From contig JAPPIT010000034.1 of NCBI GenBank assembly GCA_028820505.1, forward strand, positions 89,565 through 130,612: DNA of 41,048 bases. The letters are read 5' to 3'. The position numbers and the translations under genes were made by a program. The notes under the pieces were generated by a model that was not told the origin of the DNA, ran no database searches, and worked only from the letters and a program-made list of their open reading frames with translations. Shown here in pieces: positions 27,098 to 33,802 of the stretch (within the stretch, counting starts at the first letter, position 1; every line of letters begins with the position of its first letter). Source of the stretch: Defluviicoccus sp. (GTDB taxonomy: Bacteria > Pseudomonadota > Alphaproteobacteria > MPNO01).

Positions 27098-27847
27098 TCA
27101 GCGTAGGTTCGGCGTCTTGCGCGCCAGCCTTCCCGAAATCCCGCCCGTCCCCGGCGCCGACCCGTCCCGCCCGGCGATCTCCAGGATCATCTTCTTGAGG
27201 ATCGCATCGGCGAACGACCGTCTGTCGTCGGCCTTGATGACGAAGGAGCGGGGACCGCCGGTGACCGCCGCGCGGTAATATTCGTCGAGGTCGGGCATCG
27301 ACGGGCGCTCGATCACCAGCCCGTTGACCGTGATCCCCGCCGCGACCGCCGAGTCGCGGGCGAACTCGACCGGCAGGCCTATCGTGTTCGGGCCGTCGCC
27401 CGAGACGTCGATCACCAGCCGCGTGCCCTCGAACCCGTTGCCGGCGATCGAGGCGGTCGCGAGCGCCACGGCGTCGCCGATGGCGTTCCCGCCGGGACAG
27501 AACATCGGCGGCAAAGCGAGGATTTTGCCGCCGAAGGTCCTTGCGCCGGCGCCGTCGGAGACCCGGGTCCAGCCGACGCTGACGCGTTCGCAGCCCGGAC
27601 CGGCGAACTCGATATAGGCCACCGCGACGGCGCGCAGGAATCCGCTCCCGATGGCGCCCAGCACGCGCGGGTTGGCGAGCGCGTCGGCATAGCCCCGGCG
27701 CTGCAGCCGGGTCTCGGCCTCGTCGATGCTGCCCGACGCATCGACGACGAAGGCGAGTTCGAGGTCCACCGCCGCGCGCTGCGCGTGCGCGGGCCAGGCG
27801 ATGCAGAGCAGGACCAGTGCGGTCGAAAGGAACGGCCTTCCCGGCAT
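27098..27847 (-). CDS. DUF1194 family secreted vWA-like protein
   Basis: A 249-residue protein with a signal peptide (MPGRPFLSTALVLLCIAWPAHAQ, AxA-Q cut) and a von Willebrand factor A fold. The MIDAS motif is FVVDASGSIDE (DxSxS) near residues 32-42, with TRLVIDVSGDGPNT as the second segment. DUF1194 has no established function to my knowledge; metal-dependent protein binding in the periplasm is likely. It is transcribed with otsB, overlapping closely (9-bp gap), which would co-regulate an exported adhesion-like protein with trehalose synthesis. It diverges from the ketopantoate-reductase-like gene at 27946. Confidence 0.88.
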   Translation of the reverse strand: MPGRPFLSTALVLLCIAWPAHAQRAAVDLELAFVVDASGSIDEAETRLQRRGYADALANPRVLGAIGSGFLRAVAVAYIEFAGPGCERVSVGWTRVSDGAGARTFGGKILALPPMFCPGGNAIGDAVALATASIAGNGFEGTRLVIDVSGDGPNTIGLPVEFARDSAVAAGITVNGLVIERPSMPDLDEYYRAAVTGGPRSFVIKADDRRSFADAILKKMILEIAGRDGSAPGTGGISGRLARKTPNLR

Positions 27848-27945
27848 GGCGTTCTCCCCGTTCGAACCCGTCGCCCGCCGCGGCGAGGGGGATAGAATAG
27901 CAGGACCGGCCGGATCGGGACCGGACAGGCGGGGAGGGCTCTGCA

Positions 27946-28986
27946 ATGCCGCGGAAGATCGCGATCGTCGGAAGCGGCGCCAACGGCACCTCGATCGGCG
28001 TCGACGTCGCGCGCGCCGGCCATGACGTGACGCTGATCGACCAGTGGCCGGCGCATGTCGAGGCGATGCGGAAGAACGGTGCCACGATCGCGATGCCGGA
28101 GGAAACCGTCGTCCAGCCGGTGAACGCGCTCCATCTCTGCGAGGTCTGCACGCTGAAGGAGCCCTTCGACGTGGTGCTGGTGGTGACCAAGGCCTACGAC
28201 GCACGCTGGTCGAGCCAGCTCATCGAGCCCTGGCTGAAAGAGGACGGACTCCTGGTCGCGGTGCAGAACGGCATGACCGCCGGGACCGTCGCGGAGGTCG
28301 TCGGTCCGGAGCGCACCCTCGGCTGCGTGATCGAGATCTCGTCCGGGCTGTTCACGCCGGGGATCGTCGAGCGCCACTCGCCGCCCGCCCGGTCCTGGTT
28401 CGCGGTCGGCAGCTTCCACCCGGCGACGAAGGGGCGCGAGGGCGAGGTAGCGGCGCTTCTGTCCTGCGCCGGCGCCTGCGAGATCGTCGACGACATCCTC
28501 GCGGCCAAGTGGATGAAGCTGGTCAGCAACTGCACCACGCTCGCGACCACGGCCTGCCTCGGCAAATCGATCGTGGACGCGGAATCGGTGCCCGGGATGC
28601 GCGCGTTCATGCTGCGCGCGGGCCAGGAGGCGCTCGACGTGGGCGCCGCCGTCGGGCACGAGCGGCGGCCCATCCTCGGGATGTCGGAGCGCGACGTGCG
28701 GGATTCGAACCGCCTGGTCGAGACCATGCTCGACCGCCTGATGGAGGGCTTCATCCTGCCCGACACCAGGGGCGTGGTGCTGCAGGACTGGGAGAAGGGG
28801 CGCAAGAGCGAGCTCGACAATCTCAACGGCCACGTCGCCCGCACCGCGCGCGAGGCCGGCATCGCCGCGCCGGCCTGCGAGGCGGTGTCCGAAATCGCCC
28901 GCCGCATCGAGCGCGGCGAGCTGGAGCCCGGCGTCGAAAACCTCGCCTTGCTGAACGATTTGGCCCAAAGCTACGCGCGGGGGTGA
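27946..28986 (+). CDS. Ketopantoate reductase (ApbA/PanE) family protein, second paralog
   Basis: A 346-residue NAD(P)H-binding protein, paralog of 15391-16419. The Rossmann motif is IAIVGSGANGTSIGVDVARAG, the conserved Asn is in VQNGM, and the KxxxN pair is AAKWMKLVSNCTT. The start has GGGGAGGG upstream. With an Asp-rich ISEWARRIERGELEPG-like C-terminus shared between the copies, both appear to belong to a lineage distinct from canonical PanE. It stands alone, diverging from the DUF1194 gene over 98 bp. Confidence 0.87.
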   Translation: MPRKIAIVGSGANGTSIGVDVARAGHDVTLIDQWPAHVEAMRKNGATIAMPEETVVQPVNALHLCEVCTLKEPFDVVLVVTKAYDARWSSQLIEPWLKEDGLLVAVQNGMTAGTVAEVVGPERTLGCVIEISSGLFTPGIVERHSPPARSWFAVGSFHPATKGREGEVAALLSCAGACEIVDDILAAKWMKLVSNCTTLATTACLGKSIVDAESVPGMRAFMLRAGQEALDVGAAVGHERRPILGMSERDVRDSNRLVETMLDRLMEGFILPDTRGVVLQDWEKGRKSELDNLNGHVARTAREAGIAAPACEAVSEIARRIERGELEPGVENLALLNDLAQSYARG

Positions 28987-29216
28987 GGATACCGAGGATA
29001 ACCTGACGGACGGGCTCTTCCGTATCGATATTGGTGCTGTCTTTACCGGCCGCAGAATATATTATTGTCTATATGAAATACTGACATATCGTTTTTTCCA
29101 ATACTTTGCTGGACGGAACGAGATGAGCCGCAAGGCCCTGTAAGTGCGGGCGCTGGCGGCAGGTCCGCCGTCGGTGCGGCCGGCGTGCCCCGGTCGATCA
29201 ACAGAGAAGATGCACT

Positions 29217-29876
29217 ATGAACCCACGTTCGCTCGGTACGTTCGTTGCCGTTTCGATTTCCGCTGCCCTGATCGCCGCCGCGAGCCCGCCCGCGCTCGCT
29301 CAGGACAACCGCCCGCGCGACAGTTCCGGCGCCGTCATGGACCTTTCCAGGTGGCACTCCATGCCGACGCACGAGTTCATGCTCAACATCGTCGATTTGC
29401 CCGGCGCAGCGTTCACGCGCGCGCAGCGGCGAGTGCGCAACAAAGGTATCCCGCACGAGCGCATCCGGTTCGATGGTGGCGAGGGAAGCATGTTCGTCGA
29501 GCACATTCTTTCGGGGGTTTACAATTCCTACGTCACTGACCGTTTGCAGAATCGCGCCGATATGGATCGCCGCCTCGACCGCTTCGGTCAACGTCACGGT
29601 CAGGTGTTCGAGGTTGTGGAAAACCGAAAAATCTACCGCTACGGCGAGCGTGGCGGCTGGGTCTACGCGATACGCGGTCGGCGCACGGGTGAGACCTGCA
29701 TTGTCTCCCGGTTCGGGTTCCTCTCGGATTGGGCGAAGATCGGGCAGCGCACCGGCGAGCACTACGACACCTCCATTACATTTCGCGACTGCTCGGGAAA
29801 GCGCTCGCTCGACGACGTGGTGAAGTGGGTCAATAGCGCGAAGATCGTCGAGCTCCCATACAACCGAGTTCGTTGA
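29217..29876 (+). CDS. Exported protein of unknown family, 219 aa
   Basis: I do not recognise a family. A Sec signal peptide (MNPRSLGTFVAVSISAALIAAASPPALAQ, cut after AxA at about residue 29) predicts export. The mature part has exactly two cysteines, C161 (GETCIVSR) and C192 (FRDCSGKR), which could form one disulfide, and is basic with aromatic clusters (KIYRYGERGGWVYAI). It is first in a same-strand run with a 56-aa ORF, an S8 protease and a lipoprotein, so a role as substrate, inhibitor or folding partner of the protease is possible but unproven. A 230-bp leader with an AT-rich patch (29050-29115) precedes it and probably carries the promoter. Confidence 0.8.
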   Translation: MNPRSLGTFVAVSISAALIAAASPPALAQDNRPRDSSGAVMDLSRWHSMPTHEFMLNIVDLPGAAFTRAQRRVRNKGIPHERIRFDGGEGSMFVEHILSGVYNSYVTDRLQNRADMDRRLDRFGQRHGQVFEVVENRKIYRYGERGGWVYAIRGRRTGETCIVSRFGFLSDWAKIGQRTGEHYDTSITFRDCSGKRSLDDVVKWVNSAKIVELPYNRVR

Positions 29877-29878
29877 CC

Positions 29879-30049
29879 GTGCGCTACATCGCTCCGATCG
29901 CAGCTGCCCTCGTCCTCGGACCAGGCTGCGACACCTCGTTCGGGACCCTGACCCTCATCGGGTCGGGCGTCGACGCCGTCACGACCGTTATCGAGTCCGG
30001 TCCGCCCTCCGAGGAGCAGAACGCCAAGCCGGAACCCGGCGGCGAGTAG
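29879..30049 (+). CDS. Small 56-aa ORF, GTG start, possible lipoprotein
   Basis: The frame opens with GTG two bp after the upstream stop and ends with TAG at 30047-30049. The product begins MRYIAPIAAALVLGPGC, a short positively charged, hydrophobic stretch ending in Cys17, then a Thr/Val-rich segment and a Pro/Glu/Gly tail. LGPGC is only a weak lipobox. No ribosome-binding site is seen, so translation would depend on coupling to the 219-aa gene. Existence as a gene is supported by position and signal-like N-terminus only. Confidence 0.5.
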   Translation: MRYIAPIAAALVLGPGCDTSFGTLTLIGSGVDAVTTVIESGPPSEEQNAKPEPGGE

Positions 30050-30084
30050 GCCGCGCCGGGGGCATGACGATCAAGGAGAAAACC

Positions 30085-32427
30085 ATGTTCAAGCGTATCC
30101 TGTTCGGCGCAGTTGCTTTGGCGTTGCTCGCCGCCTGCGGCGGCGGTGGAGGCGGCGGATCGAGCGCCCCGACGCCGCGACCCCAGCCGCAACCCGGGCC
30201 GGCACCCCAACCGCCTTCGACCGACTCGGAGGCCGCACGTCACCTCGGGACGGCGCGGTTCACCACGCATCAGCCCCGCGCGCTGGAACAGATCGGGGCG
30301 CACCATGCCTATGCGCGAGGCCTCTCCGGGCGGGGCGTGCGCATCGGCATCGAAGACAGCGTTGTCGACTACACGCAGCGTGGAGAATTCGGAAACCGGG
30401 TCAGGCTCCGCGATGCGGACGGTGCGGTGCTGTCCCATCCGCACCACCTCGCAGAAATAAGCGGCAGCGACGTGGATGTCTGTCTGCGCAGGCGCACATG
30501 CACTGCTTTCACGGAAAACAGCCAAGGCGGCGACGAAGCGCGAAACCGCTGGGTACAGCAGATCGTAAGCCGGGACGGTTGGCCCACGAGAGACAATTCC
30601 GTGTTCGTGGCCGATGACCACTACAGCGCCAGCGATCCCTTCGAGGCGTTGTACCGATGGTCGGAAGTGCTGACGCCCTACGGCGATGCGGCACATGGGA
30701 CAATCGTTGCCTCGGTTGCAGCCGGGACCAACCTCGGCGTCGCGCCGGAAGCAACGATCATTCCGGTTGCGGTGGACTTTGCCGCCCGCCAACAGCGGGA
30801 GAACGACTTTGCGGACGCGGTCTTGCGATCCGTGATCGCCTCGCTCCCCGGCGCGGACCGTCGGCAAGTCGACGACGAGTTTGCCAATTTCTACCGGGAG
30901 GACTACGCGAAGTTCGATATCATCAATCGGTCCTATGGCATCGACCTGTTCGATCCCGCTGTGATCTCGGCGGACATCGACTCCGAACTCCGGTGGTATC
31001 GGCGCTACCTGCCCAGGACCCTCGATGCCGCTCTGCAAGTGGGTACGCCGGACGGGCGGAAGACCATCCTCGTATATGCTGCAGGCAACTCGGGTCAGCC
31101 CTGGTCGGGGATAGGCGCAGACCTTCCCTTCTATATCCCTGAGCTGCGCGGATATTCCCTGTCGGTCGTTGCGACGGACCCACGGACGGGTAACATCGCA
31201 AGCTACTCGAACCGCTGCGGTGCGGTCCCCAGCGACTGGAATGCAGCGCGACATGGACGGCACTACTGCCTCGCCGCTCCGGGCACGGTGCGGGGTCTGG
31301 TGCCCAACCGAAACCGTCCCGGAAGGGGCGACGCGAGAAACGGACTGGAAGGAACCAGCTTCGCCGCGCCCCTCGTATCGGGCTCCCTCGCGCTGTTGAA
31401 AGAGCACTTTCGGGGGACGCGCGGAAACACCCAAGTCGTCAAGCGGATGCTCGACACCGCCGATCGAAGCGGGCGGTACGCCGATCTTGAGACCTATGGC
31501 GCGGGACATCTGGACCTTGAGGCGGCGCTCTCGCCGGTCGGCGCGCTCAGCGCCGGACGCTCGGGACATGCGCTCAGCCGCACTTCGTTCCAGGCTCCGG
31601 CCGCATTTGGCTCGGTCGCCCAGCGCGCCGGCTCCATCGAGCTGGCGACGTTCGACGAGCAGGAGTTTCCGTTCTGGGTTCCGGTGTCCGCGCTGATCTC
31701 GGAGGGGGCGGCCGGCCGCTCCCCCATCCCCCGCTTCGAGGATGTGGAGAAACCGGCCTTGCCCGCGCCCGGTCTCGACGCTCTCAACCTGCACTGGACG
31801 GAGATCGACGGCGCCGGCGACGACCGGCCCCGGGGCGGCAGACACTGGGTGATGGGGTTTGGCCCGACTTCGGCAAGCCTAGCGCGTCGGCCGCTCGATG
31901 ACGGTTGGGGGTACGGGCTGAGCTTCGACGACGCCGGGCACCTGGGAGCCGAGACCTCCGGCGCGTTCGGAACGGACCCGCGATCCGGCATGGTGTGGAC
32001 CTCGCGAGCCTTCGAGCGTGGGTTCGGCGACGGCTGGACGGTCAAGGCCACCGGCACGGCGGCACTCAGCCTTCCGCAATACGAGAAGGATGCGATGTTT
32101 CGGGCGAGCCCTTCCATGTTGTCCGCGATGTCGATGCGGGTCGGCACCGAGACCACGGGGGTCGTCGTCGAACAGCCGCTCCGCGCCGAATCGGGCACAG
32201 GCCGATTCCGGGTCGAGAACGGCAGGATCGAGAACGGAAAGCGGCTCCATGACGAGTTTCGAGTTCCGCTGCGCCCCGATGGGCGGGAGGTGCGGATGAC
32301 GCTTCGCCATGACTTCGCTGCTCTCGGGGGGAATTTGGCGGTCGAGATCGGCGGTGCGGTGAATGTCGGCCATGTCCCGGACGAGCGCGAAGCGAATGTC
32401 GGGCTCGCCTACCGTTCGACCTGGTGA
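30085..32427 (+). CDS. S8 (subtilisin-like) serine protease with lipoprotein signal and autotransporter-like C-terminus
   Basis: A 780-residue protein. MFKRILFGAVALALLAAC carries a lipobox with Cys18, followed by a Gly run and a Pro/Gln linker. The S8 triad is D91 (IEDSVVDY, with the usual DSGVD varied), H204 (AAHGTIVASV) and S425 (GTSFAAPLVSG), with oxyanion N335 (AAGNSG). Residues ~580-780 alternate polar and hydrophobic positions and end in Trp, resembling the end of a beta-barrel; the barrel seems shorter than the usual 270-300 residues. The layout resembles NalP-type lipidated autotransporter proteases. ATG 30085 has AAGGAG at six bases; the earlier ATG at 30064 lacks one. Confidence 0.9.
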   Translation: MFKRILFGAVALALLAACGGGGGGGSSAPTPRPQPQPGPAPQPPSTDSEAARHLGTARFTTHQPRALEQIGAHHAYARGLSGRGVRIGIEDSVVDYTQRGEFGNRVRLRDADGAVLSHPHHLAEISGSDVDVCLRRRTCTAFTENSQGGDEARNRWVQQIVSRDGWPTRDNSVFVADDHYSASDPFEALYRWSEVLTPYGDAAHGTIVASVAAGTNLGVAPEATIIPVAVDFAARQQRENDFADAVLRSVIASLPGADRRQVDDEFANFYREDYAKFDIINRSYGIDLFDPAVISADIDSELRWYRRYLPRTLDAALQVGTPDGRKTILVYAAGNSGQPWSGIGADLPFYIPELRGYSLSVVATDPRTGNIASYSNRCGAVPSDWNAARHGRHYCLAAPGTVRGLVPNRNRPGRGDARNGLEGTSFAAPLVSGSLALLKEHFRGTRGNTQVVKRMLDTADRSGRYADLETYGAGHLDLEAALSPVGALSAGRSGHALSRTSFQAPAAFGSVAQRAGSIELATFDEQEFPFWVPVSALISEGAAGRSPIPRFEDVEKPALPAPGLDALNLHWTEIDGAGDDRPRGGRHWVMGFGPTSASLARRPLDDGWGYGLSFDDAGHLGAETSGAFGTDPRSGMVWTSRAFERGFGDGWTVKATGTAALSLPQYEKDAMFRASPSMLSAMSMRVGTETTGVVVEQPLRAESGTGRFRVENGRIENGKRLHDEFRVPLRPDGREVRMTLRHDFAALGGNLAVEIGGAVNVGHVPDEREANVGLAYRSTW

Positions 32428-32431
32428 GCCG

Positions 32432-32734
32432 ATGGACGGGCTTCGCCGGCTGGCGCTTGCGTTTGGTTGCGTGGCCCTGCTCGCCGCAGCCTGCGCGTCT
32501 GAACCGAGGCCCGAACCGGGCCCCGCCCCTTCGGCGCTGGGCCCGCCGGTCTTACGGCAGGGCGTCGTCTACACCCCCGTCAGCACCGACCCCCGGGGAT
32601 GCGTCCTCTACCGCGTGAGCATTCCGGGCGGTCGCGCGCCCGCCGCCCTGATATACCGGAGCAAGAACGGCGCGTTCACCTATGACCGTCCGCCTCGATG
32701 TGTCACCAGCGCCGGGTTCAAGGCGTCCCGATAG
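32432..32734 (+). CDS. Small lipoprotein of unknown function, 100 aa
   Basis: The N-terminus ends in LLAAAC with lipidation Cys21, then a Pro-rich linker (SEPRPEPGPAPSALGPP) and a compact domain with two more cysteines (RGCVLYRV, PPRCVTS). It starts 4 bp after the protease stop, so it is very probably co-translated with it. No family recognised. It would be anchored in the outer or inner membrane, alongside the lipidated protease. Confidence 0.75.
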   Translation: MDGLRRLALAFGCVALLAAACASEPRPEPGPAPSALGPPVLRQGVVYTPVSTDPRGCVLYRVSIPGGRAPAALIYRSKNGAFTYDRPPRCVTSAGFKASR

Positions 32735-32750
32735 GGCCGATTTGCGTCCG

Positions 32751-32831
32751 GCGCTTCGCGGCTACTCAGGGTGAGGGTTTCATCTCCGTCACCTCATCCC
32801 GAGTAGGCCCGAAGGGCCGTATCGAGGGACG
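32751..32831 (-). repeat. Bipartite palindromic intergenic repeat, copy 2
   Basis: Reverse-oriented copy of 2133-2223. Half 2 (32751-32777, reading CCCTCACCCTGAGTAG on the minus strand) precedes half 1 (32792-32831). The half-1 hairpin is GGCCC-gaa-GGGCC at 32806-32818, differing from copy 1 in sequence but not in pairing. Confidence 0.75.
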
Positions 32832-32833
32832 CC

Positions 32834-33802
32834 CTACTGCGCCGCGATGCCCGCCCCGGCTTCCGCCCCCATCGCGCCCGCTTCTTCGAGGGCCGCGCGT
32901 AGCGCCTCGCGGTCGTCCTCGCCCAGCATTCTGAGCGGCCGTCTGGGCGGGCCCACCGGGCGGCCGAGGATGTCGAGCCCGGTATGGCCCACCCGGATAT
33001 GCGATTTGGCGCAGATCATGTCGCAGATCGGGAACAGCCGGTCCCAGATCGCGCGCGCCTGGGCGACATCGTCCTCGTAGACCGCGGCGCGGAAGAACGC
33101 CATCGCCTCCGCGGGCAGGAAATTGCTCACCACCGGCGCCCAGCCGGTGGCGCCGGCGCTGAACGCCTGGAGGCTCGTCGACTCCCAGCCGGCGATGATC
33201 GCCACGTCGTCGCCGGTCAGCGCGCGGATCCGGCTGATCCGCGTGAGGTCGCCGGTGCTTTCCTTCACGCAGCGCATGTTCTCGTGCCGCGCGAGTTCGG
33301 CGAGAAACTCGGGCGGCATGTCGATGCCGGTGGTCCACGGGTTGTTGTAGACGCAGATCGGCAGGCCGATCGCGTCGGCGACCCGCTCGAAATGCGCCCG
33401 CACCTCGTCCAGCGTCAGCGGCCAGTAGGTCATCGGCAGGATCATCACCCCGTCGCAGCCCACGGCCTCCGCGTGCTGCGACAGCCGCGTGCAGGCGGCC
33501 GTGGTGCGCGCCCCGGTGCCCGCGATCACCGCGATGCGCCCGTCGACATGCCGCGCCGCGACCTCGATGCCGCGCTTCATCTCGTCCTCGGAGAACGAGC
33601 CGTTGCCGCCGGTCGAGCCGAACACGCAGACTCCGTCCACGCGGTTCCCGATCTGGTGGTCGAGCACCCGGCGCAGGCCGTCCTCGTCGATCGCTTCGCC
33701 GTCGTCTTCGAGCGGCGTCGGAACGAAGGTGAAAACGCGGGACCAGAATTCGTGCTTCGCGACCATGTGTCCCTCGTCGAAGTTGTGGGGACGGTCGGTC
33801 AT
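32834..33802 (-). CDS. DapA-family (dihydrodipicolinate synthase/N-acetylneuraminate lyase) aldolase or dehydratase
   Basis: A 322-residue class I TIM-barrel lyase. The Schiff-base Lys is K180 (RCVKEST) and the partner Tyr is Y152 (CVYNNPWTTG). The usual GxTGE substrate loop reads GSTGGNGSF (about 62-70), with the Glu absent. The context and the altered loop argue against biosynthetic DapA and for a catabolic aldolase/dehydratase of a keto acid. The start at 33802 or an ATG 12 codons later (33766) are both possible. It diverges from the NMT1-like gene over 95 bp. Confidence 0.88.
   Translation of the reverse strand: MTDRPHNFDEGHMVAKHEFWSRVFTFVPTPLEDDGEAIDEDGLRRVLDHQIGNRVDGVCVFGSTGGNGSFSEDEMKRGIEVAARHVDGRIAVIAGTGARTTAACTRLSQHAEAVGCDGVMILPMTYWPLTLDEVRAHFERVADAIGLPICVYNNPWTTGIDMPPEFLAELARHENMRCVKESTGDLTRISRIRALTGDDVAIIAGWESTSLQAFSAGATGWAPVVSNFLPAEAMAFFRAAVYEDDVAQARAIWDRLFPICDMICAKSHIRVGHTGLDILGRPVGPPRRPLRMLGEDDREALRAALEEAGAMGAEAGAGIAAQ

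Follow-up and report, generated by a model that had tools for sequence, protein, structure and literature searches.

We analyzed a 41,048-nucleotide window from a Defluviicoccus sp. genome (GenBank assembly GCA_028820505.1, contig JAPPIT010000034.1, positions 89,565 to 130,612), in which four plus-strand open reading frames (ORFs) encode a 219-amino acid (aa) exported protein, a polypeptide of 56–58 aa, a serine protease of family S8 (subtilases) and a 100-aa lipoprotein (Table 1). A preliminary description of this DNA had proposed that the four genes form a dedicated secretion or surface-processing system around a NalP-like protease. Because a co-occurrence test splits the cluster, we conclude that the protease and the 100-aa lipoprotein form a two-gene module rather than part of a four-gene secretion system; the proposal holds for these two genes and fails for the 219-aa and 56-aa genes, which are not conserved with them.

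The protease ORF opens at position 30064 (787 aa), and its second ATG, at 30085, has a Shine–Dalgarno sequence upstream. Counted from that ATG, the cysteine of the lipobox occupies position 18, which is where the preliminary description had placed it. The combination of signal peptide and lipobox predicts a lipidated bacterial lipoprotein, and 14 of 15 family members scanned carry a lipobox. In a Pfam scan, the protein matched Peptidase_S8 above the cut-off and otherwise only a sub-threshold lipid-attachment motif. Asp98, His211 and Ser432, together with the oxyanion Asn342 (787-aa ORF numbering), are invariant in an alignment of the protease with eight relatives, and this intact triad and the Pfam match place it among the subtilases, as first described. 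No recognizable propeptide domain was found in the protease. It is most closely related to a paralog in the same genome (locus L030, 66–67% identity) and to a protein from a Paracoccaceae metagenome-assembled genome (L029, 65%); among the nine aligned sequences, only these three have an insert of ~85 residues between Asp and His. Further S8 proteins of the genus are about 30% identical to the window protease. The ratio of nonsynonymous to synonymous substitution rates (dN/dS) against the two closest relatives is about 0.18–0.19, and the protease is under purifying selection. In sister species, S8 proteases of this family are also encoded in tandem, three at locus L035 and two at L034, with two of the L035 copies nearly identical along most of their length. 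Elsewhere in the window's own genome, another ORF begins with a fragment of the subfamily's C-terminal domain (61% identity), probably a remnant.

Table 1. Features of the window and of related loci; positions are those of the window unless a locus is named. OMP, outer-membrane protein.
Feature	Position	Strand	Detail or basis
Accessory island with all four genes	28988–32834	not assigned	Missing in sister species G004
219-aa exported protein, no conserved protease partner	29217–29876	+	Conserved Cys pair C161, C192
56-aa ORF (56–58 aa by start), doubtful lipoprotein	29873/29879–30049	+	
Shine–Dalgarno AAGGAGA of protease	30073–30079	+	Sequence
S8 protease, predicted lipidated, with OMP-like C-terminal domain, 780 aa	30085–32427	+	PF00082, E 1.4e-25
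Lipoprotein signal peptide, lipobox LLAAC	30085–30138	+	Cys18 codon 30136–30138; +2 residue Gly
S8 catalytic domain	30274–31533	+	Codons Asp 30355–30357, His 30694–30696, Ser 31357–31359
C-terminal domain, probable outer-membrane β-barrel	31771–32424	+	~210 residues, about 12 amphipathic strands by eye
Terminal strand EANVGLAYRSTW, OMP β-signal-like	32389–32424	+	Aromatic last residue 39/39
100-aa lipoprotein, probable protease partner	32432–32734	+	Cys21, conserved Cys57 and Cys90; homologs directly after S8 genes
DUF1194 protein	27098–27994	−	Outside the island
S8 genes next to Slam	L031:102–3938, L079:155–4418, L029:2041–8202, L165:726–9208		
Paralog of protease	L030:7428–10131		Contig C105
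Tandem S8 genes	L035:4062–11223, L034:5123–9906		Sister species
C-terminal-domain fragment	L032:6465–6602		Contig C221
561-aa lipoprotein	L029:9368–11050		HEAGH motif
63–79-aa protein genes	L031:2640–2831, L075:6465–6656, L077:3126–3320, L078:7972–8163, L082:6203–6415, L072:4802–5041		
Flagellin with S8 domain	L156:6325–8481		Genome G240

The 100-aa lipoprotein gene starts 4 bp past the protease stop, in agreement with the preliminary description. At L029 and L030, a homolog (47–52% identity) likewise lies directly downstream of the S8 gene, and a profile built from the three sequences led to S8-linked homologs in genomes G185, G055 and G145, which were verified in extended loci; a second G055 copy surfaced during that check. 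The lipoprotein gene directly follows an S8 gene in seven loci (the window, L030, L029, G185, two in G055 and G145), at a spacing of about 5 bp or with an overlap of roughly 15–20 bp with the protease stop, a linkage far above chance. When 41 S8 proteins were placed in a maximum-likelihood tree, those with the lipoprotein neighbor formed two groups (window, L029 and L030; G145, G185 and G055) separated by strongly supported branches, so that at least two changes are needed; linkage to S8 proteases was acquired at least twice independently. Because it has become attached to such proteases repeatedly in this way, the lipoprotein is probably, by analogy with known partner proteins, a dedicated helper or safety catch for them.

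Members of the lipoprotein family combine a lipobox with a conserved cysteine pair in a mature part of about 55–80 residues, and dN/dS is 0.36–0.54. AlphaFold2 predicts a small β fold for the 100-aa protein, with a predicted local distance difference test score (pLDDT) of about 88 in the core; neither Foldseek (best E 1.0) nor VIA-align (best Z 2.9) gave a convincing PDB match for this model, and we assign no fold. Pfam, NCBIfam and PHROGs returned no match above curated cut-offs, and by these comparisons the lipoprotein appears to represent an undescribed family. Plasmid searches with the lipoprotein gave no match, and in a phylum-wide sample of 398 genomes the family was found in the window's own genome only.

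All four genes lie on an accessory island of 3.85 kb. In G004, the flanking ApbA-like and DHDPS-like genes, which share about 89–92% DNA identity with those of the window, are only 70 bp apart; in G003, the segment next to the ApbA gene is likewise missing, with further rearrangement. Guanine–cytosine content at third codon positions (GC3) is 0.77–0.86 in the four island genes versus 0.93–0.94 in the nearest flanking genes, and no terminal repeats of note were found at the island ends examined. A common island and lowered GC3 would suit one dedicated secretion or surface-processing system made of all four genes, a reading that we nevertheless consider very improbable. Neither the 219-aa protein nor the 56-aa ORF has a counterpart at L029 or L030, the two closest S8 loci, and the sole other 219-aa homolog in 143 genomes (G018, 32% identity), which retains both cysteines, lacks a neighboring S8 gene. 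The 219-aa exported two-cysteine protein is itself present as described earlier, and the 56-aa product, then taken for a possible lipoprotein, proved a weak call, with a GPGC lipobox that has Pro at −2 and no family match. In the co-occurrence check, the 100-aa lipoprotein followed S8 genes in distant genomes and these two genes did not; they have the island in common with the protease, but not a partnership.

Aromatic ends with alternating hydrophobicity are a signature of outer-membrane barrel proteins, in which they act as the signal for the β-barrel assembly machinery (BAM). The last residue is aromatic in all 39 protease family members compared (F in 32, W in 6 and Y in 1), a count that left out one copy truncated at a contig end. 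In the same set, hydrophobic or aromatic residues occupy positions −5, −7 and −9 in 95–97% and −11 in 85%, and −2 and −4 are mostly polar. This bears out the outer-membrane type of C terminus first noticed and, with about twelve amphipathic stretches counted by eye in residues 572–787, suggests that the C-terminal domain is probably an outer-membrane barrel. The domain sits behind an S8 domain in 10 of 10 homologs scanned, and among 289 alphaproteobacterial genomes sampled, 55 contain matches to a profile of the C-terminal 300 residues. It has no Pfam match, the autotransporter family PF03797 being absent up to E 1 for the window protein and up to E 5 for ten homologs, and its profile found no PDB sequence up to E 10. 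Judged by these searches, the domain falls outside PF03797; relative to type Va autotransporters, the protease has the aromatic OMP-type terminal strand and lacks the PF03797 match. The lipobox, S8 triad and OMP-type end of the NalP-like protease first described are thus retained, and its PF03797 membership is not.

Four protease relatives adjoin Slam genes (SlipAM, PF04575), namely those at L031 in the window's own genome, L079 in G004, L029 and L165 in G101, and TbpB-like lipoprotein genes lie near the S8 and Slam genes at the last three (L079, L029 and L165). Such neighbors, and GAFG-like motifs in both protease-family and TbpB-like proteins, would fit an alternative in which the C-terminal domain is a soluble TbpB-like barrel rather than a membrane barrel and Slam (type XI secretion system, T11SS) carries the protease as cargo. 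This was our initial idea, which we set aside because every family member compared has the aromatic OMP end, and which we now regard as unlikely. The TbpB-like lipoproteins at these loci mostly end in a GAFGxxK-like motif, and the protease, which has the OMP-type end instead, has no Pfam match to a TbpB-type C-terminal barrel domain. No Slam match was found in the window, and none is listed on its contig in a whole-genome search. The Slam neighbors of the relatives suggest a shedding of surface lipoproteins. Since meningococcal NalP releases LbpB, which is itself carried by Slam1 (PMC5472700), proteases near Slam loci may plausibly act as sheddases; the main text of a T11SS cargo survey does not mention subtilases or subtilisins (PMC12282271). 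At L029, a 561-aa lipoprotein has a HEAGH motif and weak reprolysin-like matches, and its C terminus resembles that of TbpB-like proteins; from its sequence, it is possibly a metalloprotease carried by Slam.

At L030, the lipobox and protease frames are out of register across an 11-G tract right after the lipobox cysteine, and L031 has an 8-G tract; the window protease gene contains no homopolymer tract of 7 or more. The L030 tract recalls the poly-C switch of NalP (PMC5472700) and may be an on/off switch or a product of misassembly. Because this draft assembly has many G runs, some of them at contig ends, we do not take it as proof of phase variation.

SphB1, which is lipidated, Ssp and EprS are subtilase autotransporters that resemble the window protease in joining an S8 passenger to a C-terminal translocator. 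They differ from it in C-terminal family, and its NCBIfam match to EprS, which covers the protease part, is weak: it scores 54, far below the equivalog cut-off of 1700. The AprI/Inh proteins, small envelope inhibitors encoded beside the secreted metalloproteases that they restrain, share with the window lipoprotein the position of a small envelope protein gene beside a secreted protease, but the window partner is lipidated, accompanies an S8 protease rather than a metalloprotease and has no Pfam Inh match. NalP (AspA) of Neisseria meningitidis has the same sequence of N-terminal lipid, S8 passenger and outer-membrane-type C-terminal end, and its action on a Slam cargo parallels the Slam and TbpB-like genes near the protease relatives (PMC5472700). 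Unlike NalP, the window protease has a C-terminal domain with no PF03797 match, is encoded together with a small lipoprotein and has no homopolymer switch, although its paralog has the 11-G tract. Dentilisin of Treponema denticola (PrcB–PrcA–PrtP) is another acylated subtilisin-family protease encoded with other lipoproteins, of which the 23-kDa PrcB interacts with PrtP and is needed for its expression; PrcB, however, reportedly has no homologs beyond oral treponemes (PMC8167434), and no PrcB family matched the window lipoprotein. In Salmonella, the small lipoprotein SadB is encoded in an operon with the autotransporter SadA and aids its display (PMC3953254), although SadA, unlike the window protease, is a trimeric adhesin.

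Among these systems, NalP-like self-display best fits, by analogy, the occurrence of lipidation and an OMP-type end on one S8 protease (PMC5472700, PMC7857515). On balance, we favor the reading that the module comprises a NalP-like self-displaying surface subtilase and a lipoprotein acting in trans to assist or restrain it. The protease would be synthesized as a lipoprotein and directed to the outer membrane, where BAM would insert the putative barrel and leave the S8 passenger outside, held by the N-terminal lipid; once displayed, it might, like NalP, cleave proteins on the surface or close to it. Translated directly behind the protease, the 100-aa lipoprotein would act on it in trans, most likely by binding it in the envelope and either aiding its folding and display or keeping it inactive until outside. 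Whether conceived as binding, inhibition or chaperoning, this role is modeled on dentilisin PrcB or SadB.

Several results weigh against this reading. A profile–profile comparison of the C-terminal domain with 25 PF03797 barrels was not significant (22.7% probability), and an AlphaFold2 model of the C-terminal 300 residues, made from an alignment of two sequences only, had a pLDDT of 28.9, too low to be of use. Most S8 homologs in the protease family have no small lipoprotein neighbor. Conversely, the lipoprotein homologs of G106 and G220 lie between metabolic genes with no S8 gene in a 16-kb context, and no S8 gene turned up near the homologs of G121 and G230. The lipoprotein family extends beyond the protease partnership, which nonetheless recurs; the proposed 100-aa partner is upheld by its recurrent S8 linkage and qualified by relatives without S8 neighbors in two other genome families. 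These relatives, and the accessory nature of the island, leave some room for the view that protease and lipoprotein merely travel on the same mobile segment and that the lipoprotein has no role for the protease. We give this view a small chance, since the S8 tree implies at least two origins of the same gene order (about 5 bp apart or overlapping), the lipoprotein persists where other island genes do not and the genes are under purifying selection.

A relative of the lipoprotein in G240 bears on how the favored partnership might work, since its gene is convergent with that of an adjacent flagellin containing a complete S8 domain (Flagellin_N E 7e-31, S8 E 4e-46 and Flagellin_C E 1.5e-20). Because this S8 domain has no autotransporter route, the case tilts slightly toward the protease domain, not the translocator, as the target of the lipoprotein. 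The S8 domain lies between the N- and C-terminal helical regions of the flagellin; published proteolytic flagellins (flagellinolysins) bear a metallopeptidase, and subtilases are unmentioned in the main text of that report (PMC5595980).

We also advance, tentatively, a broader proposal: that one lineage of lipidated alphaproteobacterial subtilase autotransporters uses a new type of translocator and has repeatedly recruited a small, undescribed two-cysteine lipoprotein as a partner that acts in trans on folding or as an inhibitor, with some members coupled to Slam, either shedding T11SS-displayed lipoproteins or using Slam for their own lipid anchor. Subtilase autotransporters are usually described as self-sufficient. 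A partner that came to follow S8 proteases at least twice independently, and also lies beside a flagellin-exported S8 domain, may point to a general way of handling a dangerous secreted protease. The Slam links make it testable how the lipid anchor of a lipidated autotransporter reaches the surface and whether dedicated proteases shed T11SS cargo outside Neisseria.

Two neighboring genes were also recorded. Just after Slam genes, the genus repeatedly encodes a 63–79-aa protein with a P-D-L-x-E-R-V-A-R-I-E-E-type start, which at L031 lies between the Slam and S8 genes. Beside the island is a gene for a DUF1194 protein that is conserved in G004; for marine Rhodobacteraceae, DUF1194 has been proposed as a T11SS cargo (PMC12282271).

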